Shown piece after piece: positions 39,670 through 59,417 of a DNA stretch of 64,000 bases (positions are counted from its first letter, which is position 1; each line of letters opens with the position of its first letter). The notes beneath the pieces are model-generated. The model was given only the letters and a program-made list of their open reading frames with translations. It was not told the DNA's origin and made no database searches. The stretch is from Phragmitibacter flavus (GTDB lineage Bacteria; Verrucomicrobiota; Verrucomicrobiia; Verrucomicrobiales; Verrucomicrobiaceae). The position numbers were made by a program, and so were the translations under genes. Location of the stretch: positions 1 to 64,000 of the forward strand of contig NZ_VAUV01000006.1 in assembly GCF_005780165.1 (NCBI RefSeq), written 5' to 3'.

Positions 39670-39824
39670 ATCGTCGACCATTTCCAAAAAATCCTTCCGG
39701 CTTGTCCTTTGTTATCAAACCCGTTCGTCGTCTCCGCAGATAGAGAGCAATGGACTCATCCAAAAGATATCCAACGCCATACTCCACCACTCCACCCACT
39801 TCCAAACCAAGAACCCCTCTCCCC

Positions 39825-40936: not shown

Positions 40937-43897
40937 TCAATCACGTCGGCGACGGCGATTGACCAGCAGAACCCCCAACCCCAACATCAGCAGCATCGCC
41001 CTCCCCGGCTCCGGAATCACCGTCGCCGTCACATAATATCCATCCGTCGTAATCGTCTGGCTGAGCACAAATCCATTGATCGAAGTGGTCCCCAAAGTTA
41101 GCCCGTCCGTGCTCAAATCGGAATAAGCCGCATTCGACCAGTCGATCAACTTCCACGTATGTCCGTCAATCCACATGGAAGTATCCACCGCCACCAACTC
41201 GACCACGCCATCGTCCAGATTGATGTTCCCTGTCGTAAAGATCTCCAACAAATCATTGCCCAACCCCAGCGAGTTGTAGGAACTGCTCCCCAACGCCGCC
41301 AGACTTCCTGCACCCGTCAGGTCAAACTGCAACGATCCGTTCAAATTGATGCCCACATTGGTCACTGCCAGACTGTTCCCCAATACCAGATCCTGCGCCG
41401 TCCCACCCGTTCCATGGGTCGCACCCACCATCAACTGACTGCCAACTCCCAAAGTAATGCTCCCCGCCGCCCCGCCCGTGATGCTCCCCGTGCCGCCCAA
41501 CCTCGCGTCCGCCAACACCGTCACATCCCCTGTGCCCGTTGCGGAGCCAGTGGTGTTGTTCGCCAACAAGGTCCCACCCCTAACCTCCGTTCCACCCGCA
41601 TAGGTATTGGCACCCGACAAAATCACCGTTCCCGTTGTCGCCGTTCCCACCGCTTGATTCGCCCCGCCGTCGGTCGCATTCAGGTCCGGATGATTCACCA
41701 GTTGATTGACCGTCACCCTCGTCACTTGCGTGGCGCTACCGTTGTCATTGATCACTCCTGAAAATTCCACCGCACCGCCGCCTTCTGCGAACAGCGCAAG
41801 ATTCGTCAATCCATTCGGAGCATTCGGCGAAGTGATGTTGCCGCTGAACGTGACCAACCCCGTTGTGTTAACACCACCTACCCGATAACCATTGACAATC
41901 CCGTTGTTGGCCACCCCATTCGTCATGTAAGTCGCCACCGTCCCCAAGTTCACCGTTCGCGCAAAGGTTGCTCCCGGCGTCTCCATAAAGAACCCCGGTG
42001 TGGTGTTGATCCCACCCGCCACATTCACCGCCAGCGGTGCCCCATCCGCCCCCAGATCCAGGGCACCTGTTCCAATCGCACTCGCCTCTCCCAGCGCTCC
42101 CACACTTCCGGCCACCACCAGCGTGCCACGCAGCACCTTGTTCAACAACGCGTAACTATTCGTGGAATTGCCCAACCGAATGGTCCCCACCCCCTGGTTC
42201 GAACCATTCCACAACATCACACTGCCACTGCCGGTGATTTGCCCGGTGATGTTCATCAACATTCCCGCACGTTGAACCGCCATCTCATAGCGGCCCGTGG
42301 TGCTCCCCACGGCAAAAGAAATATCCCCACTCATCGTCAGCACCGAGGTGTCCGCAGCGTTGGTCGAATTAAACACAAATCGCGGTCTGCCCACAATGGT
42401 GCTGCTCAGGGCCGACCCATCCAAATCACGATCAAAGGTCCAGTCAACCGTTGAACCCGTGCGATTTTCCACGATCAACGTTACATTCCCCGTATCTGCA
42501 TTGGCCGAGCTCGGCGTGGTCGCATCCCCCCACACAATGGCTGAAGACGACTGCCCCAGCGGCCCCGCTTCTCCCTCCTTCACCTCATCCGTAACGATGA
42601 TCGTTCCCTGCTGCAAGGTCGTCGTCCCGGCATACAAATTTTCACCCGTCAAAGTCAATGCACCCGTGCCCGTTTTGACCAGATTCCCCGCCCCCAAAGC
42701 CGGCAGCGGCGAATACAAATATCCCACCGGCGCATACGGAGCATAAGAAGGTGGCCCGGCCTGATTAAGGCGCTCCCCCTGCGTTGCCCCCGTCGCACTT
42801 CCCGCAATGACTCCCGCGAAAGTCGTGGACGAATTGTTGCCGCCCATCGTGAGCGTGTTTCCATTCAAGATCACATTGCCGCCACTAACTCCACCACCTG
42901 CCAGCGAACCGATCGTCTCATTCGACTCCAGCGACAACGTCGCCTTCACCGATCCTCCATTGACACCCCCTTGAAAATTGCTCAACGTCACCGCCGATGA
43001 ATCGCCAATCGCATTGCCTCCCCTGATCACCAAAATGCCTCCATTGATGTTCGTTGCCCCCAGATACGAACTGCCTGCCTGCTCCAACACCAACGTCGCG
43101 TCACCCGTCTTCGTGAATCCCCCCGCTCCCGTGATCGGGTTATATATCGTCAACATCTGTGCTCCACGATTGCCCACGTCCATTCGCGGTGCATTCACCA
43201 CATCCTGCACCAGATTGAAGGTGTTGTTGTTGGTCAGTTGAATCGCCGTCGTCGTCCCAGACGCACCGAAGTTCCATAACTGCGGTCCGAACTGCCAGTT
43301 GTTGGTCATCTGGTTGAGCGTCGTGCCATTCAAGGCAATCGAAGTCGCCCCGCTCAAATCCCAATACCCGCCATCCGAGGTGCTGTTGTTGTTTCCCAAC
43401 GTGGTCCCACTCGCCGCCGTGAAACCACCCTTGAACTGCATCCAGTTGGGCGAATACGGGCCCCCATAGAAGCTCCCCGCGAGAATCTCAAAGTTACCGT
43501 TAACGATCAAGTCGACCGCCCCCGGCGTGTATCTAGATCCAATGTTGTTGAACCCCGAAACCACCGTCAAATTGTTGATGATTTGCGTCGTGATGGGAGC
43601 CGGATCTGGAGAGACATAATAATCTCCGAGATAACCCGACGAATTGATCAAAAATACATTGTCCGTTGCCGCCGGACCTTCCGTCGGGACCACCCCACTA
43701 TCCACACCACCCGTCTCCCAATTCGCTCCCGTCGCCCAATCACGATTCCCATGCGGCGTGAGATCCCCATCGCCCGTCCAGTAATAATCCACGGCCATTC
43801 CCCTCCCCAAAATTAAAAGCACCGCCGACAGAGCAAGCAGCGGATATGGCAAACTGTGCCGAGGCCGGAGATGTTCGATTCGTGGTTCTTCTTTCAT
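40937..43897 (-). CDS. One-module autotransporter-repeat PEP-CTERM protein
   Basis: A 986-residue surface protein. The ATG at 43897 is preferred over a TTG at 43903. A basic leader and hydrophobic segment (SLPYPLLALSAVLLILGRGMA) act as a signal peptide. One passenger module follows. It opens with YYWTGDGD ... WATGANW and carries several autotransporter-associated beta-strand repeats (for example GTGALTLTGENLYAGTTTLQ, ANTYAGGTEVRGGTLLANNT, GTGSITGGAAGSITLGVGSQ). A capping block TWKLIDWSN lies near residue 930. The C-terminus is a PEP-CTERM sorting signal: PEPGRAMLLMLGLGVL followed by RRRRD. There is no C-terminal autotransporter barrel. It is the last gene of the minus-strand run that starts with the Verru_Chthon cassette. 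Confidence 0.9.
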   Translation of the reverse strand: MKEEPRIEHLRPRHSLPYPLLALSAVLLILGRGMAVDYYWTGDGDLTPHGNRDWATGANWETGGVDSGVVPTEGPAATDNVFLINSSGYLGDYYVSPDPAPITTQIINNLTVVSGFNNIGSRYTPGAVDLIVNGNFEILAGSFYGGPYSPNWMQFKGGFTAASGTTLGNNNSTSDGGYWDLSGATSIALNGTTLNQMTNNWQFGPQLWNFGASGTTTAIQLTNNNTFNLVQDVVNAPRMDVGNRGAQMLTIYNPITGAGGFTKTGDATLVLEQAGSSYLGATNINGGILVIRGGNAIGDSSAVTLSNFQGGVNGGSVKATLSLESNETIGSLAGGGVSGGNVILNGNTLTMGGNNSSTTFAGVIAGSATGATQGERLNQAGPPSYAPYAPVGYLYSPLPALGAGNLVKTGTGALTLTGENLYAGTTTLQQGTIIVTDEVKEGEAGPLGQSSSAIVWGDATTPSSANADTGNVTLIVENRTGSTVDWTFDRDLDGSALSSTIVGRPRFVFNSTNAADTSVLTMSGDISFAVGSTTGRYEMAVQRAGMLMNITGQITGSGSVMLWNGSNQGVGTIRLGNSTNSYALLNKVLRGTLVVAGSVGALGEASAIGTGALDLGADGAPLAVNVAGGINTTPGFFMETPGATFARTVNLGTVATYMTNGVANNGIVNGYRVGGVNTTGLVTFSGNITSPNAPNGLTNLALFAEGGGAVEFSGVINDNGSATQVTRVTVNQLVNHPDLNATDGGANQAVGTATTGTVILSGANTYAGGTEVRGGTLLANNTTGSATGTGDVTVLADARLGGTGSITGGAAGSITLGVGSQLMVGATHGTGGTAQDLVLGNSLAVTNVGINLNGSLQFDLTGAGSLAALGSSSYNSLGLGNDLLEIFTTGNINLDDGVVELVAVDTSMWIDGHTWKLIDWSNAAYSDLSTDGLTLGTTSINGFVLSQTITTDGYYVTATVIPEPGRAMLLMLGLGVLLVNRRRRRD

Positions 43898-43934
43898 GAT
43901 CAAAACAATAATTTAATGGGTTCGGTTCAAATGG

Positions 43935-46900
43935 CTACCGGCGGCGACGGAGGCTCCATCCCAACAGTCCAAGCAACAGCAGCAACGCCCTTCCTGGCTC
44001 CGGCACGGCAGAAGCCGTCACGTAAAAACCGTCCGGCTCAAACGACGAGGTCAAAAAGTATTCACCAAACACCGAATTGGCAAGTTGCAGACCTTCTTCC
44101 CCAACCGGCGCCTCACCACCCGACCAGTCAATCAACTTCCACGTCTGCCCCTCCATCCACAAAGAAGAATCAACCGCCGCAATCAACACCATCGCATCAT
44201 CAAAAATTAACTCGCCCGATGCCTCAATCACCAACAGATCATTCATATCCACACCGCTCATCAGATCAAACTGCAAGGTCCCCGACAACGAAACGTCCAG
44301 ATCCAACACATCTGCCGAACCCAACGTCAGTGTCTGCGGCGCACCGCCCACTCCATGCGTCGACCCCACCATCAGCTGGGTGCCGGCACTCAGTGTGATG
44401 CTGCCGCTGTCGCCACCAGAAATACTGCCCGATCCACCAAGCGTCGCACCACTGTCCAACAAGGTGCTCACACTACCGGAACCCGTCGCGGAACCAGCCG
44501 TGTTGTTCGCCAAAAAGCTTCCCGAACGAATCAACGTGTCTCCGGAATAGGTATTGGCTGCGGTGAACTCCAGGATGCCCGGACCGATCTTCTCCAACCC
44601 TCCGGCCCCGGTAACCACATTCGCCACCGTGAAAAGATCGGCTGCCTGCTCAACCCCCAAAGTCGCACCGTTTGCCCCAAAGGTCACCCCACGATTTGCA
44701 TCATCAATGGTCACGTTTGCATAAGCCGACAAGGTCCCGCCGTTGATGGTCAGATGGGCTGCATTGAACGCCAGCGGATTACCACCCAGGTTGCGCTCAT
44801 CATTGGTCCGCACCACTCCTTCGTTGATGGTGGTCGTTCCCGTAATATAAGATCCAGAGGCCGTAAAGCCGGTGTCTCCATTGTCCCCGTCAAGGTCCGT
44901 GCCCCCGTTGAAAGTAACGGTGCCCGAACCGTTTTTGATCAGGTTCACCACCTGGCTGGAGCGGCGTTTGACAAACGGCACGCTGGTGTTGCCGGATCCA
45001 CTAAAGACAATATCCACGGCAGCGCTGCTGTTGGTCATGAAGCTGGTGATGCTCAAGCTGCCATCGTTGATGATGTTATAAGTTCCGCCATTGCGTGGCC
45101 TCAGCTCCGCATTGATCTGCTGCGTTCCACCGCGAACCTCCAATGAATCTCCAAAAGCGAAGAGCACACCGCCGCCGGTTCCTGCAGCAATCTGGTAGTC
45201 GCGCTCTCCGGTGAAGATGAGATTGCGGAAGCTTTGATCGCCGCGATGCTGCGTCGCTGTTACTCCAGTTCCTCCCGCAAAAACGACATCATCGCCCGCC
45301 CCCGGAGCAACACCGGACAGCCAGTTGCCCCCGACCTTCCAGGACGCCGGGTCCACCGCATCATCCCCCTCCCAGACGAAAGCCCCCGCCGTGGCCACCA
45401 CCGAAATCGTGCCGTCCACAAGAAACTGGCTCACGTCCCAGTCAAATCCAGTCGCCAGACTGCCCATCGTCGCCGTGAAATCAAAATCCAAGCCACCGTC
45501 CAGCGAAGTCTCGTCAAAGTCCACCCCGCTCCAGTCGATCAACTGCCAGGTTCCACTGGTCCACCCCGACTGACCACTGGCATTCGCCACCACCACTGTC
45601 CCGCCCAGAGTCAACACCTCCGCCGTGGTGAACAACTGCAAACGATCCGACTCCGACAAGGTCAGCCCCGCCTCGTTGCCGAACAAATCAAACTGCATGT
45701 CCCCTGCCAGTGTGATCCCCACATCCGCCACACTGCCCAACGTCAGCAAACCAGGAACGCCGCTGCTGTTGTTGTGATTGTTGCCCACCCGCAAAAAGGC
45801 ATCGGCACCAATCGCGATCTGGCCACCCTCTTTCCCCGCGACCAATCCAAACCCGCTCAGCATCGATGCCCCCTCCACAAAAACACTGCCAAAGCCCGTG
45901 GCCGAGCCGCTGATGTTTCCCACGTTCAGCGTTCCGCCCTGAACAAAAGTATCTCCGGTGTAAAGATTCGCCGCCAACAGACTCAACGTTCCGGTGTTGC
46001 TCTTCGTCAATGAGCCAGAACCTGAAATGACGTTGGCAATTCCCATGGTGAAAGTCCCCTCAACCTCAAATTCACCACCATTTTCACCCAAGCTCACGCC
46101 GCGATTCTCATCATCAATCAGGACGTTGCCAAATGCCCCCAGCACACCGCCGTTCAAGGTCAGATGCCCCGCATCGTAAACCTCCGGATTGCCTCCAAGA
46201 TTGCGCTCATTGTTGATGCGCACCTTCCCTTCATTGATGGTCATGCTGCCCGTGATCGTGCCAGTTGCATTGACACCAGCATCACTCCCGTTGAAGCCGC
46301 TGATGGTGACCGTTCCACTGCCCTCCTTGACGATCGTCAGGTCATAGGTGTTGTGACGCCGTTCAAATCGAGAAATGAGCGTGTTGCCCGATCCGCTGAT
46401 GGTCAGCAACTTGTCCGTAGCAGCCGCGCCTTGATCAAAATCATTCGCCGTGATGCCGTCGGTGAACAACAGCGAGTTGCCATCATTAGCCGCCACACCG
46501 TTGTTGATGATAAACAACTCGGAGCTGTTATCTCCAAAACGCAGGTTCGAATTGATTGTCTGGATGCCGCCCCTGACCTCAATGGTGGCACCATCAACCG
46601 CGTTTCCGCGCACATAAAGCACCCCGCCTGAGCCAGGCGAGATCGAATAATCCGCAGCCCCGGTAAACACCACATTTCGCACATTGGCATCCCCGTTGGT
46701 AACCGTCGCCGTCGGTCCCGCCGCATCAAAGATCACATCGTTGGAGGCTGTCGGCGTGGTGCCCGCCGTCCAGTTCAGCGCCTCATTCCATGCGTTGCTC
46801 TCCGCACCGCTCCAGATATGAATATCGGCTGCATCGATCTGCTGCACCGAGATGGTGCCGTCCGTAAGAAAATTGCTGGTGTCCCACTCATAACCAATCG

Positions 46901-48980
46901 CCAATGCGGAACTGTCGATCCCATAACTGAAGGTCCCATTCTTCGCCGCCGCACCCACTCCGCTCCAATCGACCAACTGCCACAACCCAGTCGTCCAGCC
47001 AGTTCCCCCCACTGCACGCCAGTTCGCCTCCCCCGTTGCATTGGCCACTGCAACACTGCCACCCAAAGTCAACTCAGTCGCCGTCGTCAACAATCTCAAA
47101 CGATCTGACGCACCCGCCGTCACGCCATCGGAGGCACCAAACAAATCAAAGCGCAGCTCACCCGCAAGCGTGATGCCCACATCCACCGCCGAGCCCAAGG
47201 TGAACTCCGACACCGCACCAACGTAACCTCCTGCACCCACCTCGCCCACCGCCGTTCCATGCGTATTGCCCACCATCAAGCCAGACCCCGCCGCGATCAC
47301 CAGGCTCTTTCCCGCCGCCCCGGTGACAAACCCGGTCCCGCCCAGCGTGGCCGAACCGCTCGTCGCGACATTGCTCGTCCCCGTTCCCGAACCGGTGACA
47401 TTGGTCACAAGCAAGGTGCCCTCATTGATCGCCGTATTGCCAGAGTAGTTGTTCGCCGCCTGCAGCTCCCAGAGGCCTGCACCAAACTTGCTGAACCGAG
47501 TTGCCGTTGTATTGCCTGGAGCCGCCACCGTGCCGCCGATGACCCCGCTCATCACCCCATTGGCACTTCCGCCCAACTCGAAACTCGATGCATGCTCAGC
47601 CGTGGAACTGGTGGCAAGCACGGAACCCGTCCAGGTGAGAATGCCCGTGCCATGGTTTTCCAACCGCCCATTGCCGCTGCTCACCGCGTTGCCGTTTTGC
47701 AGCCGGATGTCACGATCGGTCGTTGTCGTCGCGCCTGTGTAAAAAAGCCGGCCAACCGTGGCGCTGTTTTGTCCAAAGGTGAATATCGTTCCCGCACCGA
47801 GCGCCGACGCCTGGTTCTTCATCCCGATCGTCGCCACACTGATGATCCCGTCTTGGGCAAACGCATTTCCTGCGAAACTATTCGCATTGTTGTTGAGGAA
47901 CAGCGTTCCGTTGGTGCCACCGTCAGTGCGACCAACCCCAACATTCGCACCAGAGATTGAACCGTTCACTACAATGTTGGAGGTCGATGTCCCGCGAAAA
48001 ATGATCGAGCCTGTCATGGAAATGTTTCCATCCAGCGTCAACACCCCTGCTCCATTGTTGTAAAGCAACCCGCCGTTGCCCGTGATGGCCCGGTTGGTCG
48101 TCGCCGTGCCGCCCGTGTATTTGGCATGCGCACCAGAATTGATGATCAAAGCGTCACCGGCTCCAATCGCGCTGTTTTCGCCGACATTCCCAAAACTCGA
48201 AAACAACAGGGTCCCGGCCCCCACCGTTGTGTTGCCGGTGTAGCTGTTGGCATTGTTGGTCAAGGCCCACGCACCGTTGTTTCCCCCGCCGGCACCCGTC
48301 ACCACCACGGACAATCCCCCTGCGGCTCCGCCATTGGAAATCAATCCGCTGATGTTGTTTCCAGAGGCATTGTTCTGACGACTGCCAGCGGTGCCGGTCA
48401 GATTCAACGTCACCGAGGAGCTCGTCACACCACCGGAAATGGCACCCTCAAAATTCAATTTATACGGGTTGGCATCGCTCCCAACATTGGTCGCATTGTT
48501 GGTAAACGTATAAGTCCCCGCAGCATCACTGGTCAGCGGTTGAATCACCAGCGGCGCATGAAAGGTCGTCACGCTGGTCACCCCCGAATTCACCGTGATG
48601 GATCCACCGGACGTGAGGTTCAATCCATTGCCCAGACCAGCACCTTCGCCGCCAACGGTATAGGCCCCCGCTCCAGCAGCAAACACCATCGATTGAATGC
48701 TCCGATTCTGATCCACCACCACCGCTGTCGGGCCCTCGTCGCTGTTAAACGTGGCCGTGTCGAGACTCAACGTGCCATCCGTCGACCCCGGCACCGCCCC
48801 ATCCCAATTCAGCACATCCTCCCACGCCGCGGTCGCACCGTCGCCAACCCACACACGCGTCAGTTGAGCCTGAAGCAGCGTCACTGGCAGCAGGCTGCAC
48901 ACCAATGCCAGCCAAACATGAAAAGATCCCCGCCTGCAACGATTCACAGGGGATTGGAAGAAAAGGGAAGTCACGTTCAT
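43935..48980 (-). CDS. Three-module autotransporter-repeat PEP-CTERM giant protein
   Basis: A 1681-residue exported beta-helix-type protein with a signal peptide (VWLALVCSLLPVTLLQAQ). Three modules are visible, each opening with a W-x-G ... W ... NW ... P motif: near residue 40 (VWVGDGATAAWEDVLNWDG), near 722 (HIWSGAESNAWNEALNWTAG) and near 1200 (VWEGDDAVDPASWKVGGNW). Each module closes with a WQLVDWSG/WQLIDWSG/WKLIDWSG cap. Beta-strand repeats of the autotransporter-associated type (such as NSYTGNTTVGAGTLLFSS and NNYSGNTAINEGTLLVTN) occur throughout. The C-terminus is VPEPGRALLLLLGLLG plus RRRR, a PEP-CTERM anchor. It is flanked by sister genes with two modules and one module. The function is presumably adhesive or cell-surface structural, but unproven. 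Confidence 0.9.
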   Translation of the reverse strand: MNVTSLFFQSPVNRCRRGSFHVWLALVCSLLPVTLLQAQLTRVWVGDGATAAWEDVLNWDGAVPGSTDGTLSLDTATFNSDEGPTAVVVDQNRSIQSMVFAAGAGAYTVGGEGAGLGNGLNLTSGGSITVNSGVTSVTTFHAPLVIQPLTSDAAGTYTFTNNATNVGSDANPYKLNFEGAISGGVTSSSVTLNLTGTAGSRQNNASGNNISGLISNGGAAGGLSVVVTGAGGGNNGAWALTNNANSYTGNTTVGAGTLLFSSFGNVGENSAIGAGDALIINSGAHAKYTGGTATTNRAITGNGGLLYNNGAGVLTLDGNISMTGSIIFRGTSTSNIVVNGSISGANVGVGRTDGGTNGTLFLNNNANSFAGNAFAQDGIISVATIGMKNQASALGAGTIFTFGQNSATVGRLFYTGATTTTDRDIRLQNGNAVSSGNGRLENHGTGILTWTGSVLATSSTAEHASSFELGGSANGVMSGVIGGTVAAPGNTTATRFSKFGAGLWELQAANNYSGNTAINEGTLLVTNVTGSGTGTSNVATSGSATLGGTGFVTGAAGKSLVIAAGSGLMVGNTHGTAVGEVGAGGYVGAVSEFTLGSAVDVGITLAGELRFDLFGASDGVTAGASDRLRLLTTATELTLGGSVAVANATGEANWRAVGGTGWTTGLWQLVDWSGVGAAAKNGTFSYGIDSSALAIGYEWDTSNFLTDGTISVQQIDAADIHIWSGAESNAWNEALNWTAGTTPTASNDVIFDAAGPTATVTNGDANVRNVVFTGAADYSISPGSGGVLYVRGNAVDGATIEVRGGIQTINSNLRFGDNSSELFIINNGVAANDGNSLLFTDGITANDFDQGAAATDKLLTISGSGNTLISRFERRHNTYDLTIVKEGSGTVTISGFNGSDAGVNATGTITGSMTINEGKVRINNERNLGGNPEVYDAGHLTLNGGVLGAFGNVLIDDENRGVSLGENGGEFEVEGTFTMGIANVISGSGSLTKSNTGTLSLLAANLYTGDTFVQGGTLNVGNISGSATGFGSVFVEGASMLSGFGLVAGKEGGQIAIGADAFLRVGNNHNNSSGVPGLLTLGSVADVGITLAGDMQFDLFGNEAGLTLSESDRLQLFTTAEVLTLGGTVVVANASGQSGWTSGTWQLIDWSGVDFDETSLDGGLDFDFTATMGSLATGFDWDVSQFLVDGTISVVATAGAFVWEGDDAVDPASWKVGGNWLSGVAPGAGDDVVFAGGTGVTATQHRGDQSFRNLIFTGERDYQIAAGTGGGVLFAFGDSLEVRGGTQQINAELRPRNGGTYNIINDGSLSITSFMTNSSAAVDIVFSGSGNTSVPFVKRRSSQVVNLIKNGSGTVTFNGGTDLDGDNGDTGFTASGSYITGTTTINEGVVRTNDERNLGGNPLAFNAAHLTINGGTLSAYANVTIDDANRGVTFGANGATLGVEQAADLFTVANVVTGAGGLEKIGPGILEFTAANTYSGDTLIRSGSFLANNTAGSATGSGSVSTLLDSGATLGGSGSISGGDSGSITLSAGTQLMVGSTHGVGGAPQTLTLGSADVLDLDVSLSGTLQFDLMSGVDMNDLLVIEASGELIFDDAMVLIAAVDSSLWMEGQTWKLIDWSGGEAPVGEEGLQLANSVFGEYFLTSSFEPDGFYVTASAVPEPGRALLLLLGLLGWSLRRRR

Positions 48981-49080
48981 AACAAAAAACCAATCTGCAC
49001 GCGGTCGACAACCCTCAGAGGGGGTCCAACATTCTTACCATGGACCTTAATCATCTAAAGTTCCCGGTTCCATTTTTGCT

Positions 49081-52000
49081 TCAATCGCGTTTCCGACGCA
49101 AGACCAAAACCATTGCCCCGACCATCAACAGAACTGCACGTCCTGGCTCAGGCACGATCGCCATCACATAATAACCATCATTCCGAATGATCTGCTCCAG
49201 CATGAACCCATCAAACACCGTCGTTGCCAGGGTGAGCCCGGTCGTATCCACCGAAGACGGCATCATGTTCGACCAGTCAATCAACTTCCAAATGTGCCCA
49301 TCCACCCAGTCCATCGTGCTCTCCACCGAGACCTCCACCACCCCACCAGACAAACTCAACGACCCCAAGGTTTCAATTTCCAAGAAGTCATTGCTGGTGT
49401 TGGCCGAATCATAATAATTGTCATCCAAAGGCAGCAAACTTCCTGCGCCCCGGATATCGAACTGCATCGTGCCCTGAATCGCCACATTGGCCGCACCTCC
49501 CAAGCCGAGCTGCAAGACTTCCGCCGCCGCTCCCGGGCTACCATGAGAAGTCCCCACACGCAGGAAACTCCCACTGACCACCGAGATACTGTTGCCGCCC
49601 GAAATTGCCCCGGAGCCACCAAGCGTCGCGCCCGATGCTACCGAAACGTTGCCGATCCCGGTTGCAGAACCCAACTCGTTGACTGCAAGCAGCACCCCGC
49701 TGGATACCACCGTATCTCCTAGATACGTGTTAGCTCCGCCTAGACTCAAGGTTCCCGGGCCTGTCTTTACCAATCCACCAGCCCCCGTCACCGGCGTGTT
49801 CACCGCAAACGTTTGCGCCGCATTTTCCACCCTCAATGTCGCACCTTCTTCTCCAAACGTGACCCCGCGATTTTCATCGTCGATGGTGACGTCGGCATAA
49901 GCCGAAACGGTGCCGCCATTGATCGTCAGATGGCCGGGATTAAAGGCGGCGGGATTGGCTCCGAGATTCCCCTCCTGATTGATCCTCAGTATCCCATCGT
50001 TCACCGTCATGGTGCCAGTAATCGCCCCCGCCAAATTGGCCTCAGCGGCAATGGCAGTCGATCCAGTGAGCGTCAAAGTTCCTGTGCCATTTTTCACGAT
50101 GCTCAAATCGTAGTTGTTCATCCGCCGTTGGAAATGATTCACGGTCGTGTCACCGCTACCGCTGAAAATCAACGTTTTGTTGGCAACCGATCCGGACAAG
50201 CGATGATACATGATCGGCTGGCTGAAATTTAGGGTGCCGTTGTTGATGATGTTAAACTCATTGTCCACGCCATTGGCAACTCGGAACTGGGCACCAAAAC
50301 TTTGGTTGCCACCTTGCACCTCAAGGACCGTCCCATAGCCATACATCACTCCTCCGGAGCCGGTGTTGATCAGATAGTTTTGCGCCCCGGAGAAATACAA
50401 GTTTCGGAAGCTTTTGTTTTCATCGATCGCGGTAATGACCCTCGTTTGCCCGCCCAAAACTGTCCCCGCTGAGTCGAAGAACACATCATCAGTTGGACCC
50501 GGCACGTTGTTGTTTTCCCAGTTGGCCGCGTTCGCCCAAGATTGAGTTGGCTGGTCCACACCAGAACCGATCCAGGTCTGAGTCGGAATATCGATGATCG
50601 AGATCGTCCCGTTCGTCATGAATTGGCTTACATCCCAACCGTAACCGAATGCCAGGGAATCCGTGTCAAGATCAAACGTAAAACTGCCCGTCACCATGCT
50701 CGGGTCCACTCCCGACCAGTCGACCAACTGCCAGGTCCCGGTGGTCCAGTTGCTGCCACCACTGACATCGGCCATGGAAATCACCGCCGCAGAGCCAATG
50801 GTAATCATCCCCGTGGTATCGAACGACAATAAGTCCGCATCACCAAATGTCGTTCCTGCATCTCCATAACCGAACAGGTCAAATTGGAAGGTTCCCTGAA
50901 GATTCATGTCCACATCAGCGCCACTTCCCAAGGTGAAGGTTGACTCAGCAGCCGTGTAACCTGCCGCGCTCATCATTCCCGTGGCGATGTTGTGAGTATT
51001 CCCCACCATCACCGTGCCCGTGTTGCCAACGGTGATCGTCGACCCCGCAGCGCCTCCGACAATTCCAGTGCCGCCGAGGATGCCTGTTCCATTGACGGTA
51101 ATCTCCCCCGATCCTGTCGCAGAACCCGTCGTGTTCGTTGCCAACAATGTCCCCGCACTCACCAAGGTGCCGCGATAATATTGATTCGCCCTCTGCAATT
51201 CCCAAGTGCCCGCTCCGCTTTTCTCAAGCCGAAGATTCACGTTGGCCGCAGCATCCGCATTGGTGCCGCCAATGATGTTGGACATCACTCCGTTTCCAAC
51301 TCCCGTTAAACCAAGATAACTCGCATGGGTTACCGTTGCGGACGCAGTTTTGACGGTTCCCGAGAAAGTCACTGTTTGGCCGGCGACACCGCTTTCAAGA
51401 ATGCCGCCACTTCCGGTGGCAGGGGAATTGGCCCCGTTGTTTAAAGTAATCGCACGATCGGTCGTTCCTCCTGTTGCACTGCTAACTCGAAGGCGTCCCA
51501 CAGGCACATTGGCCTGATTTTGTCCTAGGGCAATCGTTGTTCCTGCCCCAATGGCAGATCCATCAATGGCGGCCTGAGCTATCGTGGCAATCGATGCAGC
51601 TTCAAAGGTCCCGGTCGAAATGCTAATCCCTCCAGTAAACCTGTTGTTAACGTTGTTCAGAAACACCGTCCCACCATCCGTTCGGCTCAGTGACCCTGAC
51701 CCGGTGATGAGAGCATCAATACTAAAGCTGCCGCTACCCCGGAACGTAAGTGAGCCGGTGAGGGTCACACTCCCTGCGTCAGTGATGGTGACGGTGGAGT
51801 TGCCGGTGTTGTTAAACCACGTGCCCCCGTTGCTAATGATGGCCCGATCGGTCGTAGCCGATGCCCCAGTGTATAAGGCGATGGAACCACCTCCGAGTCT
51901 GAAAGTATCGCCCGCCCCAATGGCGCTGGCTTGGCCAGCCAATCCGATGGTATTGAAAAAAAGCGCCCCGCTCTCCAACACCGTATCTCCCGTGTAAGTG

Positions 52001-52716
52001 CTGAGCCCGGTGAGATTCCAGGCCCCACGCTCGGCTGATGGGGTTGCACCGCCGGAAGCATTTGTCGAAATGCTCCTGAGGGTTACCGTCAACCCCTGAG
52101 CTGCACCGCCATCGGAAATCACTCCTGAAACCAAATTCGCTCCGCCAACCGCATTCCTTGTCCCAACCGATGAATCAAGTGCCAGGGTCGCACCTTGAGA
52201 GGTGACGCCAGAAGAGATGTTGCCATTCACAATCATGCGAGGACCCACCGCCCCATTGGCCGCGATGTTGATCAACGACAACGCCCCGGCATCCGTCGCG
52301 CTGGTAGGCTCAATGATCAGCGGCGCATCAATAGTCAGGTTTTGCGTCACCCCGGCATCCATGATGATCTGTGACTGATCCACCATGTGCAAGGCGAAAC
52401 CTCCATTGGCTCCCTCACTGCCCAATGTATATGCGCCTGCTCCGGTGAAAAATCCAATTCCACCTATCCACCGGTCTTCGTCAATCGTGACTGACGTGGG
52501 ACCGTTGTCTTCAAAGAATATGGCAACATCACCCGTAGTGCCACCAATCGCGCCAGGCACGCCAAAGCTCCAATTTTCGTCGACGTTCCACGCTTGCACG
52601 CCACTCGGTCCAATCCATTCAAATGCATACGATCTCATACTGGTGGCCATCATCAAACAAGCCCCCAGGAAGATGGGAATGAAGCGGGTGAATCTATTGA
52701 TTTGGAGGGGAATCAT
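49081..52716 (-). CDS. Two-module autotransporter-repeat PEP-CTERM protein
   Basis: A 1211-residue exported protein. The open frame extends back to 52947 across the neighbouring gene, but the ATG at 52716 starts a signal peptide (INRFTRFIPIFLGACLMMATSMRSYA split around a basic start). The modules open near residue 35 (FEWIGPSGVQAWNVDENW) and near 714 (TWIGSGVDQPTQSWANAANW), and close with WQLVDWSGVD and IWKLIDWSN. Beta-strand repeats such as STYTGDTVLESGALFFNT and ANTYLGDTVVSSGVLLAVNE lie between. The C-terminal PEP-CTERM signal is VPEPGRAVLLMVGAMVLV plus RRKRD. It starts 34 bases downstream of cassette protein A, making co-transcription with the cassette likely. Confidence 0.9.
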   Translation of the reverse strand: MIPLQINRFTRFIPIFLGACLMMATSMRSYAFEWIGPSGVQAWNVDENWSFGVPGAIGGTTGDVAIFFEDNGPTSVTIDEDRWIGGIGFFTGAGAYTLGSEGANGGFALHMVDQSQIIMDAGVTQNLTIDAPLIIEPTSATDAGALSLINIAANGAVGPRMIVNGNISSGVTSQGATLALDSSVGTRNAVGGANLVSGVISDGGAAQGLTVTLRSISTNASGGATPSAERGAWNLTGLSTYTGDTVLESGALFFNTIGLAGQASAIGAGDTFRLGGGSIALYTGASATTDRAIISNGGTWFNNTGNSTVTITDAGSVTLTGSLTFRGSGSFSIDALITGSGSLSRTDGGTVFLNNVNNRFTGGISISTGTFEAASIATIAQAAIDGSAIGAGTTIALGQNQANVPVGRLRVSSATGGTTDRAITLNNGANSPATGSGGILESGVAGQTVTFSGTVKTASATVTHASYLGLTGVGNGVMSNIIGGTNADAAANVNLRLEKSGAGTWELQRANQYYRGTLVSAGTLLATNTTGSATGSGEITVNGTGILGGTGIVGGAAGSTITVGNTGTVMVGNTHNIATGMMSAAGYTAAESTFTLGSGADVDMNLQGTFQFDLFGYGDAGTTFGDADLLSFDTTGMITIGSAAVISMADVSGGSNWTTGTWQLVDWSGVDPSMVTGSFTFDLDTDSLAFGYGWDVSQFMTNGTISIIDIPTQTWIGSGVDQPTQSWANAANWENNNVPGPTDDVFFDSAGTVLGGQTRVITAIDENKSFRNLYFSGAQNYLINTGSGGVMYGYGTVLEVQGGNQSFGAQFRVANGVDNEFNIINNGTLNFSQPIMYHRLSGSVANKTLIFSGSGDTTVNHFQRRMNNYDLSIVKNGTGTLTLTGSTAIAAEANLAGAITGTMTVNDGILRINQEGNLGANPAAFNPGHLTINGGTVSAYADVTIDDENRGVTFGEEGATLRVENAAQTFAVNTPVTGAGGLVKTGPGTLSLGGANTYLGDTVVSSGVLLAVNELGSATGIGNVSVASGATLGGSGAISGGNSISVVSGSFLRVGTSHGSPGAAAEVLQLGLGGAANVAIQGTMQFDIRGAGSLLPLDDNYYDSANTSNDFLEIETLGSLSLSGGVVEVSVESTMDWVDGHIWKLIDWSNMMPSSVDTTGLTLATTVFDGFMLEQIIRNDGYYVMAIVPEPGRAVLLMVGAMVLVLRRKRD

Positions 52717-52750
52717 AAAAAGGAAAAGCGGGTAGGATTTGCGGCAAAAA

Positions 52751-55700
52751 TTATGGAGTGAAGCGCTTTGTCGAAATGATTCGGAAGCGGTAGTAGTCAT
52801 CGAGACTGGCTTCACCCACACTAGGCGAAGCAAAGTCCACAAGGCTTGGATCCAATGGATCGATATAACGTTCCAAAGTGGTCGAGCCGCGGATCTCTGA
52901 AGCGACCACATCGGTGTTCTCATTCCAAGTTGCCCACGCCGTGGCATCAGTGCCGCGACTGCGCACCGCTTGAGCCAGGGTCTGGACCCGATAATGCACC
53001 GTGTAAGTGTTGGACTTGGTCGTCAGTCGAGGATACAGGGCGCTGTAAGGACGCTCTTTAAGGTTGTCACCCGTAAGAGCATGGTTGTTCCAAAAGTCCC
53101 GCATCGCTGCCGCGCTAAACGTCTGGCCTTCAGGAACCAGAAACAGTTCACAGATTTCACTCGCTGACTTAAACACATCCGCTCCATTGTTGAAACGCAG
53201 CTCAAACTGTCTCAGGGTTTCCTCCGCATTGATCCTCTGTCTGAACGTTTCTGGGAGGTTTGCCGCCGAACCCTTGTAGTTGGTGGAATTGGCGTTCGGA
53301 ATGGCCACCACCCGCTCGCTTCTGAACAATGCATGCAGCCCGGTGCTGCGATGGATGTAGGTAAAGGGCATCATCTGATAGTTCATGTTGATCTTACCCG
53401 CCGTGGAGAACGGTTCACTAACCGCATAGGGCTCCACCACCGGCATCCAGAACAGATCAAGCAGGAGGTGGTCTGGGGGATCTGTTGCCGTCCCCACACC
53501 TTTATGAGTCGCACCAGTTCCCGTGTGCGGTCTGAACAAAAGAGTCTGCCATGGCACATTTGCCTGAATACCGGTTGGAAGCGATCCGAACATCACCGGC
53601 GAGCTTACCTGGCGGTTGGGCGAGAAGAACGTTGGTCCGGGTTCAGCAAATTGTTCGGTCCGGTCATAATAAGGAACTTCAGGAGTGCCGTTGACCAGAT
53701 TACGTGATCCGTTCCCCTCATCCGGTTTGTTGATGTAAGGTCCGTCGGTATAAGTCGCTATGCCCGTATCCCAATCCCCGGTGGCTGTCGCCGCTTCGGA
53801 CCCCGCCTCTGTTGGCACATCAGGTGCCGTGTTACTGCTATAGACGACTCCAGGCAAAGACAGCAACTTGCCCGTTGTAAATCCACCTTGAACGAAATTT
53901 GACCCAATCGTCTCCGTGAAGGTATGCGCCATACGAATGCCAGGAGTGGCATAGTTTGGGTGACGTTCAAAAACCTCCACGGGGACTTCTTTTCGCCCGG
54001 CAATCAGGCGGTAGTCTCCATGCAGAGGCATCAAGGTTTTGACGATGTCACCCTGCCGGAAAATTGACCCCGCGTAGGGATTGGTCGTGCTGGTGCCCGG
54101 GTTCCTGCTTGCCTGATGCAAGCGGCCAGGTTTCCCGGAGAAAGCTCCGTCATTCGAGAATGACCACCAGTTCTCCCTGGTTGTTGCCTCGGCACTGGGC
54201 GTTCCCGCACTGCTGTTTGGTGCCGTATCCGTTCCCGTCGCGATCAGTTCCGGCGAAGGCATGCTCAGAATTGGCGGAAACTGAAGCTGGATCGTCTGCA
54301 AAGGAATGGAACTATCCGTCACCGTTGGCGTGTGTCCGGCGTAGATACGCACGGTTACCGGACCAACACTGGTCAACCTTAGATTGCCTGTTGCGGGAAC
54401 CGTAACGGGTGCGCTAATGAAAGGATAAACGTTCTGATCATTCAACCCAGTATCTGCCGCCATTGGTCCTCTGGCAGGTATCCTTCTCTGGCTTCCACCA
54501 ACCACCAAAGGCAGACGATACCCCGCCGTTCCGCCCCAGGCGCGTCCATGAAACATGCTGCTGGCGGCGGTGTTCAATGAAACGATCCCATCAGCTGGGA
54601 AACCCAGCGGGATGGTGCTGTTGATCCGTAGATTTTCCAACCCTGTCACCCGTATCTGCATGGACGGGCGGATGTAATTCGCCCCCCGACTTGGACAGAA
54701 CAATTCCATCATGAACATGGCTTCAATCCGTTTCTGGCCGGAGGTCAATAGGCTGCCGCCAAGTGAGCGATTCGCAGTAACATTGCTGGCAATTTTCGCC
54801 TTGTTTAAGTTGTCGTCTTCCGCAGGGTCGCCACTCCCATCCGCCGTCGCAATCAACACCAATCCTGCTTCAGACAAACTGTAATACCGACCAAATCCCG
54901 CTGTGTTGGTGTTGGCTGCGTGAATGGGAGCTACCTGTCCAAATCCGGGGTCTCCAACACCCCCAGCTGATCCGCGGCGACCAGCAAACTGTTTGTTCTG
55001 TCCGGTCGCTGGATACTGCCCAGGATGCAGATTGTCATCATAAAGGTTGGTTGACCTCACGTAGTCCATGATTGACGTAAGTATCTGGTCCCTGTCTGAT
55101 GCGTTGCCACCGGGAGGAACCGGATATTTGTTGAGAAAGTTGCCTCCATAACCCGGGACGTTCTGTTCCATCAGATCCCGGAGGTAGTTATAAACCTCTC
55201 CGTTGCGCGGGATATTGTCGTAATCATTCGTTGGACTGGTCGACAGCTCCCTGGCAAAATAATACTTTCCGCCATTGGCTGTCTCAGAGCAAAATGCAAT
55301 CAACCGGTCAAAAGCGGTGCGCCAGGTTGCATCATTATTGCGATGCACCGGCCACATCGATACGCGCGGCTTGTTGAAAAGCGAAACCTCCGGGGCCCGG
55401 CTGGTGGCGGTCAGGAAGAAACGGCTGCGATCGAGTTGGGCCTGGGTTATTCCGGTCTGCATCGTTCGGGTCGTGCCGCCCGATTCGGGGGTAAAGATCA
55501 ATTCATCGACGGAGGCATAGAGACGGTCGTCATCCAGAGTAACCACTTCCGTAGGGATAACTCTGCCTCCGTTTGATCCGCCCATCTGCATGCGGGGGGC
55601 GATTTGTCCAATTTGCTCACGAGTTAGATTGGGAATGACGGCACTGAGATAAGTCGTGGCAGGATGTCCGGAATAGCGCTGATATTCAAACTGTGCCGGC

Positions 55701-56614
55701 GAACGGTTTGCCAGACCTTCGCGATCAAACGCGGTGCCGGTATGGGGAGGAGCCCAATAAGAGCCCGCCTCGGGTCCATAAATGCCAGTTCCCTCTGGCT
55801 CCCAGCGGTCACCGGCAGCCGTGTTGATGTTCACTTTCGACGTTTCATCGTCCGTCCAGAAAGCCAGCCTTCCAACGATAGGATTTTCTCGCGTCGGAGG
55901 ATTTGCACTTCCTACCCAGGTCGCAGTGCCGCCGGTTCCGTCGTTTCCGGCAGTTCCCCCACCCGTTGGAGAGGTGAGTGATCCATCTCGCAACATATAC
56001 AACCAGCGAACCGGCATCGGAGCCTCATTCACTTCCGCGCCCGATGGTCCTACGGTGGCAAGCGGCGGGGCATCAATTCTGAACCCCTTGGGCCGCTCCG
56101 TTTCTGCCAGGTCGAGACTCGATGGATCGACGATCGGATATTGCTTGGTGCCCTGCAGGTTCAAGACCGGTTGATTGATATCGGCAAAAAGAGACGGCGT
56201 TGAACTCCAGGCAGGTGGCACATCAACATCAGGGTCAAAAGCCGTTCCTGTATTGGTCCATGTCATTCTCTCTGCAGAATAAAGTTTGTAATTGGTGCGT
56301 GGGGTTGAAGATGCGACATTGGAAGCGGAGTCTCCCCATGTCCTGATCATGCCAGGTTGGGATGCCCAGGCTATCTGGCTTCCCTGCGAGGTGGCCTCCC
56401 GGATCTGGGCCATCACAATGTTGACGGCGGTGTCGACCAAACTCTGGCTCCGACCACCACTGTCAGCCAGTTTCGAAGCCTTGGTCTCAGTGGAGATGCT
56501 CAGAAAGAAGGAGAGCACCAAGCCTGAAACCAGCAGCAGACAGCTCAACACAATGACGAGCGCCACTCCCTTCTCGCGCTTACCCATCTGGGCACGACGA
56601 TTCGATTTTTTCAT
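52751..56614 (-). CDS. Verru_Chthon cassette protein A
   Basis: A 1287-residue protein. The start MKKSNRRAQMGKREKGVALV leads to a pilin-like hydrophobic helix (VIVLSCLLLVSGLVLSFFLS, about residues 20-40) and a helical neck with QSLVDTAVNIVMAQIREAT, as in PilX/GspK-like minor pilins. A very long soluble part follows, with Asn/Gly/Thr-rich segments. The first residues of the helix region lack the classical G/FTLVE signature of major pseudopilins, as in GspK-type tip subunits. The cassette family A-D is known only from Verrucomicrobia-type genomes and its function is not established. By size and position this protein is the natural tip or cargo-docking subunit. It follows cassette C by 44 bases and precedes the repeat-protein genes. 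Confidence 0.92.
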   Translation of the reverse strand: MKKSNRRAQMGKREKGVALVIVLSCLLLVSGLVLSFFLSISTETKASKLADSGGRSQSLVDTAVNIVMAQIREATSQGSQIAWASQPGMIRTWGDSASNVASSTPRTNYKLYSAERMTWTNTGTAFDPDVDVPPAWSSTPSLFADINQPVLNLQGTKQYPIVDPSSLDLAETERPKGFRIDAPPLATVGPSGAEVNEAPMPVRWLYMLRDGSLTSPTGGGTAGNDGTGGTATWVGSANPPTRENPIVGRLAFWTDDETSKVNINTAAGDRWEPEGTGIYGPEAGSYWAPPHTGTAFDREGLANRSPAQFEYQRYSGHPATTYLSAVIPNLTREQIGQIAPRMQMGGSNGGRVIPTEVVTLDDDRLYASVDELIFTPESGGTTRTMQTGITQAQLDRSRFFLTATSRAPEVSLFNKPRVSMWPVHRNNDATWRTAFDRLIAFCSETANGGKYYFARELSTSPTNDYDNIPRNGEVYNYLRDLMEQNVPGYGGNFLNKYPVPPGGNASDRDQILTSIMDYVRSTNLYDDNLHPGQYPATGQNKQFAGRRGSAGGVGDPGFGQVAPIHAANTNTAGFGRYYSLSEAGLVLIATADGSGDPAEDDNLNKAKIASNVTANRSLGGSLLTSGQKRIEAMFMMELFCPSRGANYIRPSMQIRVTGLENLRINSTIPLGFPADGIVSLNTAASSMFHGRAWGGTAGYRLPLVVGGSQRRIPARGPMAADTGLNDQNVYPFISAPVTVPATGNLRLTSVGPVTVRIYAGHTPTVTDSSIPLQTIQLQFPPILSMPSPELIATGTDTAPNSSAGTPSAEATTRENWWSFSNDGAFSGKPGRLHQASRNPGTSTTNPYAGSIFRQGDIVKTLMPLHGDYRLIAGRKEVPVEVFERHPNYATPGIRMAHTFTETIGSNFVQGGFTTGKLLSLPGVVYSSNTAPDVPTEAGSEAATATGDWDTGIATYTDGPYINKPDEGNGSRNLVNGTPEVPYYDRTEQFAEPGPTFFSPNRQVSSPVMFGSLPTGIQANVPWQTLLFRPHTGTGATHKGVGTATDPPDHLLLDLFWMPVVEPYAVSEPFSTAGKINMNYQMMPFTYIHRSTGLHALFRSERVVAIPNANSTNYKGSAANLPETFRQRINAEETLRQFELRFNNGADVFKSASEICELFLVPEGQTFSAAAMRDFWNNHALTGDNLKERPYSALYPRLTTKSNTYTVHYRVQTLAQAVRSRGTDATAWATWNENTDVVASEIRGSTTLERYIDPLDPSLVDFASPSVGEASLDDYYRFRIISTKRFTP

Positions 56615-56658
56615 ATTTTAACTTTCTAAATTGGTTAATTGATGGCGTGACGCAGGTC

Positions 56659-57738
56659 TTATGGGGAAGACGCTACAACCGTCTGTTCGCGACTCCATTT
56701 CGCGCCGCGTATGCTTATCTCCGTGCTAAATACTCGATAACTCACCCCGCTGGCCGTCAGGTTGCCGACAAGCGATTCCAAATCAGCGCGACGCGCTTCG
56801 GGGGAAGCATTTTGGAACATGGCGCTCAACCCAAAATTGGGAGGCGAACTTCCATTTTCCAGATCAAGCTGAGAGGCGGATGCTTCATCAATCGCCACCA
56901 TGGTGAACTCGACGACCGGCGGCAACTGGTGCAGGCTGTTGAGCTCGGGGTTGGAAGCGCCCTGGCCGACTAGCGTCGAATCATAGGCATACAAAGGAGC
57001 GAGTTTGTTTCCGTCCGGATCCACCGTTGGATCGCCGACGGCACCTTTGCTCGGCAGTTTTGGCAAAATCACCATCGCAACGATGTTGCTCGCCACCACA
57101 CGCGCCCATTCGCTGCCTTCGACTGAATCGATCCATTCGGCTGGACTCTCGTAAATGTTCAATTCTTCGCTGGGCTGCCTGTATTCCATCAACCGAAAGC
57201 GGCTTCGCGTAACACCGGGAACGAACGCAGGTCGATCGGTGTCTGGACGGAACTCCAAAAAATACCCCCACGTGTTCAATAGATTGTCCAGCCCTGCATT
57301 TTCAGGTTCACTATTAAATCCCAAGGGAGCTTGAAAGAAGATGGCGTGGGTGGGGCGAGTCGAGGCCGCTCCTCCAATCAGAGTGCTGGCAGGTCCCGTT
57401 TGAAACCGAAGCTCTGAATGCCGCCCATATCGGCTCGGAACAAAGGTCGATGCATTCGCTGCCGTGCGCCGATTCCCCGAAGCGTCGAAGTAGTCATAGT
57501 AAGTGTTGAGCGTCGCCTGCGACAAATTTCTGGAAATCGCCTCAAAAGCATCGCGCGCCTCCCTGAACTGGTCTGCTTTGGCGGTGGTATTACGCCAAAC
57601 ATCGCTAGTCTGGCCGATTACCTGAACAATCAGCAGCATCAGAATCGCCAGCACGCCCATCGACAGCAGCAACTCCACCAGCGTGAAGCCCTTCTTGCCA
57701 GACTGGGACGATCTTGAAGATGTGGGTCCTTGGTTCAT
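56659..57738 (-). CDS. Verru_Chthon cassette protein C (pseudopilin-like)
   Basis: A 359-residue protein with a type IV pilin/pseudopilin N-terminus: a short basic leader, then KKGFTLVELLLSMGVLAILM with Gly before the methylated Phe and Glu at mature position 5. The soluble domain includes AFEAISRNLSQATLNTYYDY, similar to GspJ/PulJ-type minor pseudopilins. A prepilin peptidase would process it; none is in this window. The gene overlaps cassette B by four bases (57735-57738), so B and C are translationally coupled. Confidence 0.92.
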   Translation of the reverse strand: MNQGPTSSRSSQSGKKGFTLVELLLSMGVLAILMLLIVQVIGQTSDVWRNTTAKADQFREARDAFEAISRNLSQATLNTYYDYFDASGNRRTAANASTFVPSRYGRHSELRFQTGPASTLIGGAASTRPTHAIFFQAPLGFNSEPENAGLDNLLNTWGYFLEFRPDTDRPAFVPGVTRSRFRLMEYRQPSEELNIYESPAEWIDSVEGSEWARVVASNIVAMVILPKLPSKGAVGDPTVDPDGNKLAPLYAYDSTLVGQGASNPELNSLHQLPPVVEFTMVAIDEASASQLDLENGSSPPNFGLSAMFQNASPEARRADLESLVGNLTASGVSYRVFSTEISIRGAKWSREQTVVASSP

Positions 57739-58313
57739 TTAATTTTTGCGATGTGACTGGTAAAAGTGGTGAAGGGAATGCGAGTGGCAGGATCAATGGT
57801 CCCCGCCAATGGATCGGTCGACCCGCCGATGATCGGGAGATCCTGGTTCTGCGGATTGAGGGCCACCTGAACCGTCACGGTTGCGAGCGAGCTGTTTTCC
57901 AAAACTCCCGACAGCGTGGGCAAATCAGTTCCTGGCATCACGCGCATGTGCGCATGGAAAATGGCCTCCGCTGCATCCGCAGCAGGCAACTCCACTCCTT
58001 CATCGGTAAAATAGCGAATTTCTTTGACCACAGGCACTCCGGCTACTGGCGTGCCGCCTGGCGCAACGCCCACCAACAAATCGTAGTCGGTTTGCACGGC
58101 CTCCTTGATGAGGCGTTGGGCGATCTGGGACGAGACAGTGACATTCATCGCATCACGAAACATGTTCATGCCGGATGGCAACAATCCAAGAAGCGTGATG
58201 ATGCCGAATGCGGCAATTCCCGTCGCCACGGTCACCTCAACCAAGGAAAAGCCGGCTTGGCGGAGTCGTGCAGCAATCGAGTATTTTGGTGTGTTTTTCG
58301 AAAAAGATTTCAT
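57735..58313 (-). CDS. Verru_Chthon cassette protein B (pseudopilin-like)
   Basis: A 192-residue protein. The ATG at 58313 is used; a TTG at 58322 is possible. The leader of about 20 residues ends in RQAGFSLVEVTVATGIAAFG, a canonical prepilin cleavage site (Gly|Phe, Glu at +5), followed by the hydrophobic helix and a globular region resembling GspI/PilV-like minor pseudopilins (AQRLIKEAVQTDYDLL; FHAHMRVMPGTDLPTLSG). Its stop overlaps the start of cassette C. It lies 45 bases downstream of cassette D. Confidence 0.92.
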   Translation of the reverse strand: MKSFSKNTPKYSIAARLRQAGFSLVEVTVATGIAAFGIITLLGLLPSGMNMFRDAMNVTVSSQIAQRLIKEAVQTDYDLLVGVAPGGTPVAGVPVVKEIRYFTDEGVELPAADAAEAIFHAHMRVMPGTDLPTLSGVLENSSLATVTVQVALNPQNQDLPIIGGSTDPLAGTIDPATRIPFTTFTSHIAKIK

Positions 58314-58358
58314 AACAGTCAACTAAAGTAAGGGGTTGGCGTTCAGGCGAATGACCGA

Positions 58359-59006
58359 TCAACCGGGGCGGTAAAGTCTCAATGAACCATTGTAGGGATC
58401 AATTTGGATGGCGGCGTGGTTGGGAGGCGGAGAGCCCTCTTCGTTTGCTCCATGAACGGTGAGAAACCAAGTTCCGGCCCCCAAGTCAGTCGCCCCGTCG
58501 GGACGGAATCGAAGCCGGTAGGCGGTGTAGTCAGTTCCAATTCCCCTTGGCAGAGGCAATTTGGGATCGGCAGTATTGGGCCAGTCTTTCAACCGACTCG
58601 CCTGCATCAAGGTAGAATAGGTCGCATCATCATTGATTACCGCGCCGTTGGGAAGATACTGCACTTCGGCAACCGGCTTGGCGATCGTATTGGTCTCGTC
58701 AAATACGAAGACCTGCAAGGCGGCCACCTCCTGATCAGTCGACAACCTCTCTTCAGACGCATACTTGTAAAACCGCACCTCGACCACCCGGTTTTGCGAG
58801 AGCGCCGTCTGCCTGGCGATGCTCAATGAATCCACCACCGTCTGAATCCCCATCGAAATTTGATTGGCTTTCGAAATGCCGCTGGTCACCGGAACAATCA
58901 ATGCCAGCAGGAGGGTGATGATTACAATCACCACCAGCAACTCCACCAAAGTAAATGCCGAGCCTCTCAAAGACCGACGAACGATGGATGGATTTACTTG
59001 CTTCAT
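58359..59006 (-). CDS. Verru_Chthon cassette protein D (pseudopilin-like)
   Basis: A 215-residue protein, the first gene of the minus-strand run. It has a prepilin N-terminus (RGSAFTLVELLVVIVIITLL; Ala instead of Gly before Phe, Glu at +5) and a GspH/FimT-like soluble domain (SLSIARQTALSQNRVVEVRF, TDYTAYRLRFRPDGAT). The ATG at 59006 is preceded by AGGAG at a 7-base spacing, the best ribosome-binding site in the window. A good sigma-70 type promoter lies 37-66 bases upstream. The Ala at the -1 site is less usual than Gly but is found in other pseudopilins. Confidence 0.93.
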   Translation of the reverse strand: MKQVNPSIVRRSLRGSAFTLVELLVVIVIITLLLALIVPVTSGISKANQISMGIQTVVDSLSIARQTALSQNRVVEVRFYKYASEERLSTDQEVAALQVFVFDETNTIAKPVAEVQYLPNGAVINDDATYSTLMQASRLKDWPNTADPKLPLPRGIGTDYTAYRLRFRPDGATDLGAGTWFLTVHGANEEGSPPPNHAAIQIDPYNGSLRLYRPG

Positions 59007-59042
59007 TATGTGGCTCCTGTAGTTGCTTTGTGATTACCTATA

Positions 59043-59072
59043 ATTATGCGGCTAATGATTGAAACGAGTCAA
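59043..59072 (-). promoter_or_regulatory. Sigma-70 type promoter of the cassette operon
   Basis: Read on the minus strand, TTGACT (59067-59072) and CATAAT (59043-59048) are separated by 18 bases, and transcription would start near 59036. The leader of about 30 bases carries AGGAG at 59014-59018 before the cassette D ATG. Both boxes match the consensus in five of six positions. Confidence 0.65.
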
Positions 59073-59417
59073 TGGCAAAATGTGGATTCATCTAAATAAC
59101 TTTCTCAATCTGAGTGAGTTGCGATTTATCTTTTAATTTTTTTCACAAAGTTATAGAGATTTGACTTATGAATACATGATATATTCATATTATTTATTTA
59201 ACGCAGATAAACGCACCCTTTTATTTCTTTCGCCCCGTATAAATACCTGGTTTATTGGGGGAGTCCAGCCCCTCCCACTCCCGGGGTCGCCTGCAATGGT
59301 TCACCAAATTGCCGCGCCATCGCCAAATTCTTCTTGGCGATTGCTCTCAGCGGGGTTAACTCCCCTCCCGCCATTCAAACGGCGAGTAGCAACAGCACCG
59401 CAACACCTATATCCCTT
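59073..59417. other. A/T-rich divergent intergenic region before gnd
   Basis: No gene is seen. From 59080 to about 59250 the composition is strikingly A/T-rich against a GC-rich background. A perfect inverted repeat TATGAATA/TATTCATA (59167-59174 and 59182-59189, 7-base spacer) follows a TTGACT (59161-59166), so a promoter with overlapping operator for gnd is possible, giving a leader of more than 200 bases. A G-rich/C-rich hairpin-capable segment (about 59258-59284) lies in that leader. Confidence 0.5.

Follow-up and report, generated by a model that had tools for sequence, protein, structure and literature searches.

The four Verru_Chthon genes D, B, C and A, which in Phragmitibacter flavus directly precede three genes for giant PEP-CTERM beta-strand proteins, probably encode an engine-less, exchangeable tip of a type II secretion system (T2SS) that is inherited together with its cargo and is likely to aid the export of that cargo. 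The genes lie within the window, the stretch of 64,000 nucleotides analysed here, and all seven are on the minus strand. D (58359..59006) encodes a GspH-like prepilin of 215 amino acids, B (57735..58313) a GspI/PilV-like prepilin, C (56659..57738) a GspJ-like prepilin of 359 amino acids and A (52751..56614) a giant GspK-type pseudopilin of 1287 amino acids. They are followed by the genes of three PATR (autotransporter-associated beta-strand)/PEP-CTERM proteins, cargo 1 (49081..52716), cargo 2 (43935..48980) and cargo 3 (40937..43903), which carry two, three and one modules, respectively, as counted from their W(K/Q)L(I/V)DW caps. This order and these module counts agree with the preliminary description of the sequence, all seven open reading frames having been confirmed with matches over the NCBIfam cut-offs.

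The close packing described earlier was also borne out on measurement, with gaps of 31–100 bp and a single overlap: D and B are separated by 45 bp, B and C overlap by 4 bp, and gaps of 44, 34, 100 and 31 bp separate C from A, A from cargo 1, cargo 1 from cargo 2 and cargo 2 from cargo 3. The ATG of cargo 1 is at 52716, its longest open reading frame beginning at 52947, within A, and inspection of the 34-bp gap revealed no terminator-like site. On either side the run is bordered by unrelated genes on the opposite strand, encoding 6-phosphogluconate dehydrogenase (59334-60857) and two START/AHSA1-type proteins (39750-40921). The cassette and the three cargo genes probably constitute one transcription unit, which would yield a single transcript. 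The promoter proposed ahead of D, TTGACT-18-CATAAT (59043..59072, minus strand), is the best sigma-70-like match in the run (10 of 12) but, since matches of this kind are no commoner in the stretch than in shuffled sequences (8 found against 10.2 expected), it is only suggestive. Two further observations concern the surroundings: a gene at window positions 27032-29767 encodes a fusion of a protein kinase with WD40 beta-propeller repeats, and a second, divergent D-B-C-A cassette with no PATR neighbour lies on the same strand about 11 kb past the window end (C6:75109-80317).

All four cassette proteins exceed the curated NCBIfam cut-offs for Verru_Chthon D (TIGR02596, 9e-43), B (TIGR02598, 4e-16), C (TIGR02599, 2e-117) and A (TIGR02600, 6e-294) and, as a closely spaced run of four, the cassette itself is no different from this family; what is added here is its co-inheritance with cargo, its engine-less nature and a fusion of the two. 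No functional study of Verru_Chthon or verrucomicrobial pseudopilins was found in literature searches. Secondary NCBIfam matches are to ComGD (7e-8) and GspH (3e-7) for D and to PilV and XpsI, a GspI protein (both 1e-4), for B, and those of C include GspJ. The prepilin motifs noted previously in D, B and C (FTLVE, FSLVE and FTLVE, respectively) each have a glutamate at +5. This residue, Glu5, is missing in the K-type member A, as in the T2SS tip GspH-I-J-K (XcpUVWX; EpsI/EpsJ, 2RET; GspIJK, 3CI0). An AlphaFold model of C, built from 40 sequences (pLDDT 91), gave as its top Foldseek matches 2ret, the EpsI/EpsJ complex, and 3ci0_J (probability 0.87-0.98, TM-to-target about 0.5, E 0.013-0.1), which by these values are strongly suggestive but short of significance; the 2ret chains matched are presumably EpsJ, and 3ci0_J is assigned to GspJ by its chain label. 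It is strongly indicated that A, B, C and D are pseudopilins, C being J-like, and the cassette looks like a minor-pseudopilin set in which D-B-C-A parallels H-I-J-K. The earlier proposal of an H/I/J/K-like set is thus supported by the predicted GspJ-like fold of C, the secondary GspH- and GspI-type matches of D and B and the GspK-type N-terminus of A.

For A, both the length and the GspK-type start reported earlier were verified, the start reading G|VALVI. GspK was the next-best NCBIfam match for every A variant tested, with values from 3e-6 for a divergent copy (C21) to 0.04 for the window protein, and the N-termini of some variants weakly match PilX_N. HHalign comparison with verrucomicrobial GspK was good only over residues 1-58 from the prepilin cleavage glycine (probability 94, E 1e-7); GspK kinship of the head by profile-profile alignment was rejected as not significant, two further K-x-N-x-N motifs being sub-threshold. 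No T2SSK match was obtained at E<=10 against Pfam T2SSK_1st/T2SSK, and a search of PDB sequences with the A profile gave nothing at E<=10. A structural model spanning residues 90-1287 (pLDDT 84, pTM 0.88) yielded nothing significant in Foldseek against the PDB; among the 50 matches listed, GspK 3ci0_K had the top probability (0.30) and the pseudopilus-tip chains 9a1f_T and 5vtm_X were also present. Because the GspK similarity is confined to the N-terminus and the model has no significant PDB match, A is, as judged from sequence and model, a pseudopilin whose N-terminus is of the GspK type and whose remaining head of about 1,200 residues appears largely new. It differs from the canonical tip protein in being four times the length of GspK and in lacking a Pfam T2SSK domain.

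The cassettes also differ from a T2SS in forming clusters without GspG or an engine and in occurring in many copies per genome. Among 79 cassette loci across the Verrucomicrobiota, drawn from the 80 loci that ranked highest in similarity to A and therefore leaning to close relatives, GspE was found in one and GspF, the secretin, GspG and canonical GspK in none, and identical queries recovered the core T2SS loci of the P. flavus genome. A cluster of GspE, F, D and G is therefore absent from nearly all cassette loci and, in line with the preliminary description, engine genes are present elsewhere in the same genome. Search hits in the P. flavus genome comprise 5 full-length GspE-type ATPases together with shorter PilT-like ones, 6 secretins, 3 canonical GspK genes, 1 prepilin peptidase, 3 exosortases, about 115 PEP-CTERM proteins and at least 16 cassettes, some of which are reduced or divergent; ten other genomes each carry from several to about two dozen A genes. 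The presence of many tips and few engines in one genome suggests that the tip is an exchangeable part, inherited with cargo, and the earlier phrase that machine and cargo are encoded together was too strong, as the cargo genes are accompanied by those of the tip alone. All four genes were present at 45 of the 56 loci with sufficient flanks, in the orders BCDA (16), BCAD (11), DBCA (9) and ABCD (9), and B immediately preceded C wherever both occurred; the window cassette conforms to this pattern, with four clustered genes on one strand and B directly before C.

Repeats in the three cargo proteins match TIGR02601/PF12951 at 2e-12 to 1e-22 (TIGR02601 values 1e-19, 1e-22 and 2e-14 for cargos 1, 2 and 3), and a PEP-CTERM signal over the cut-off is present in each (C6:49087, 43938 and 40946, respectively; TIGR02595 4e-4 for cargo 2). 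They have the attributes of exosortase substrates, namely a C-terminal PEP motif, a hydrophobic stretch and a basic end, in a genome that encodes exosortases. This is shared with the PEP-CTERM/exosortase system (Haft 2006, PMC1569441), whose classical partners are EPS genes, whereas in P. flavus a pseudopilin cassette accompanies a number of the PEP-CTERM proteins. The passenger-type repeats are those of the autotransporter-associated proteins, but the C-terminus is PEP-CTERM and not a beta-barrel, which rules out export of the cargo by the classical autotransporter (type V) route. PATR proteins that by eye end in autotransporter-like barrels, and not in PEP-CTERM, do occur elsewhere in the genome, on C4 (L216), C2 (L204) and C26 (L208), such that two PATR export routes may coexist. 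A further PATR/PEP-CTERM gene in this genome, at C3:65997-82046, has 5,350 codons and 15 repeats; the surrounding stretch contains no cassette, the nearest being about 24 kb away.

The preliminary description had suggested counting how often cassettes adjoin repeat genes. The PATR model used for this was made from repeats of the P. flavus genome and gave zero matches in reversed sequence. Of 41 cassettes in ten genomes, 20 had a PATR gene no more than 10 kb away, whereas among 75 control stretches, each 20 kb long and taken from cassette-bearing contigs of the same genomes, only 6 contained one (odds ratio 11, P=1e-6), and these matched controls exclude PATR abundance as a chance source of the association. 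PATR density declines away from the cassette: it is 61 per Mb at 0-1 kb and 5.6 per Mb at 7-10 kb, against a background of 4. For PEP-CTERM genes of any kind the corresponding figures are 25 of 41 and 15 of 75 (P=1e-5). Within the P. flavus genome, several distances were tried: a PATR gene lay within 5 kb of 7 of 15 cassettes (P=8e-4), and the enrichment weakened at 10 kb (P 0.009) and was gone at 20 kb (P 0.12). When mapped on a tree built from 85 A proteins, adjacency to PATR was clustered, requiring 17 changes compared with 22.5 in shuffles, only 1 of 500 shuffles being as low.

The link between cassette and cargo is real but not universal. About half of the cassettes have no PATR neighbour (none of the seven in LW23 has one) and about 33 of the 40 PATR clusters in the P. 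flavus genome lack a cassette. Linked and unlinked PATR proteins end in the same LIDW...VPEP C-terminal cap, so that no cassette-specific signal is visible, and a C-terminal tag of this kind was rejected as a candidate. Many cassettes adjoin glycoside hydrolases, including GH2, GH5, GH36, GH38 and GH42 genes, or no obvious cargo. For these reasons the view that the pseudopilus is dedicated to these particular proteins holds as regards a statistically supported and evolutionarily conserved link, and is weakened as regards exclusivity. The glycoside hydrolase neighbours, the frequency of PATR cargo without cassettes and the common cap would favour a general expansion of pseudopilins, in which redundant tips are co-regulated with secreted proteins that are needed at the same time and make no cargo-specific contact. 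In a soda-lake verrucomicrobium 67 pulG-like pseudopilins were recorded, one pseudopilin being over-expressed on alginate (PMC13274419), and this makes an association with polysaccharide use a live alternative. We regard such an expansion as possible, although doubtful, in view of the specific pairings retained while flanking genes change and of the fusion, which argues for a closer tie, both of which are considered below.

For four of the P. flavus cassettes, another genome holds a sister cassette that likewise retains cargo. The A protein of the window is 59% identical to that of L045 from Verrucomicrobium sp. BvORR034 and, when the L045 cargo was compared with 53 PATR/PEP proteins of P. flavus, cargo 2 of the window was the best match (1002 bits, 47.5%), followed by cargo 1 (487) and the next protein (267). 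Similarly, the best match of the L094 and L098 cargo is the protein at C8, and the cargo of the C1a/L110 pair matches at 652 bits, the next value being 55. In all three ortholog groups, therefore, the best match among the 53 proteins is the one adjoining the sister cassette. The fourth pair, C5/L101, retains B, C, A, D and a downstream gene; the L101 cargo (L101:13772-19012) carries PATR and its C5 counterpart (C5:51539-53758) is a shorter, 739-residue protein of the GH5 cellulase family, the two being 61% identical over 724 residues. Apart from a single gene that diverges from the C5/L101 cassette, and a weak match in the flank there, the remaining flanking genes are unmatched in all four pairs, and synteny thus extends no further than cassette plus cargo, or only slightly beyond. 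The few pairs available, most of which belong to a single family, constitute a strong pattern and not a survey. The frequent joint inheritance of a tip and an adjoining secreted protein suggests that the tip helps to export that protein.

Two loci of unusual structure bear on this relationship. At C8:143457-149681 a single frame of 2,074 residues contains a signal peptide, a PATR repeat, PEP-CTERM, the prepilin start of A and then the whole of A; its fusion partners are separate genes in the relatives L098 and L094. We infer that the product could span the membrane as a hairpin whose cytoplasmic loop contains the prepilin peptidase site, and internal re-initiation at an ATG before A is also possible. 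The second locus, C5:69001-112000, is a T2SS locus (E, F, secretin, G, H, I, J and K) with an additional set inserted between the secretin and the GspG-K genes at C5:88336-102507, in the order B-like, C-like, a PATR protein, a PEP-CTERM protein and A-like.

The mechanism that we propose is that D-B-C-A forms a motor-less minor-pseudopilin tip that uses a shared engine to export the adjoining PEP-CTERM cargo, and we would give it an even chance of being correct. The single prepilin peptidase would cleave A, B, C and D, which would then nucleate and cap a pseudopilus of GspG, with GspE, GspF and the secretin likewise made elsewhere in the genome. At the inner membrane, the large A head and a B-C core may make contact with the cargo held there by its PEP-CTERM anchor, and so load it and guide it through the secretin; exosortase cleavage would follow or accompany this passage. 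A more far-reaching version, which we put forward tentatively and consider clearly less probable, is that a few shared T2SS engines take a dozen or more interchangeable, cargo-matched tips, each a genetic unit with its own cargo, and that the tip receives its PEP-CTERM cargo within the inner membrane; such a handover is suggested by the C8 fusion, in which the hairpin could consist of the anchor of the cargo together with the pilin helix of A.

Minor pilins of the H-I-J-K type prime pili as well as pseudopili. It is nevertheless unlikely that A-B-C-D cap a type IV-like surface filament, with the A head of about 1,200 residues acting at the surface, as PilY1 or the large tip pilins do, and with PEP-CTERM proteins that are surface partners and not substrates: this would accommodate the dual priming role, the size of A relative to canonical GspK, a head with no solved relative and the weak PilX_N matches, but the C model best matches GspJ structures, canonical T2SS GHIJK sets exist for comparison in the P. 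flavus genome, and the cargo, being co-inherited with cassettes and in one case encoded inside one, is more directly explained as a substrate.

The choice of substrates by the T2SS has long been an unanswered question. If the cassettes are engine-less tips acting as proposed, their many tips, constant engine and conserved tip-cargo pairs would provide naturally matched and mismatched pairs with which to test whether the minor-pseudopilin tip carries substrate specificity. The proposal gives four protein families that have names but no established function a first role open to testing, and it suggests how some of the giant PEP-CTERM surface proteins might be exported.
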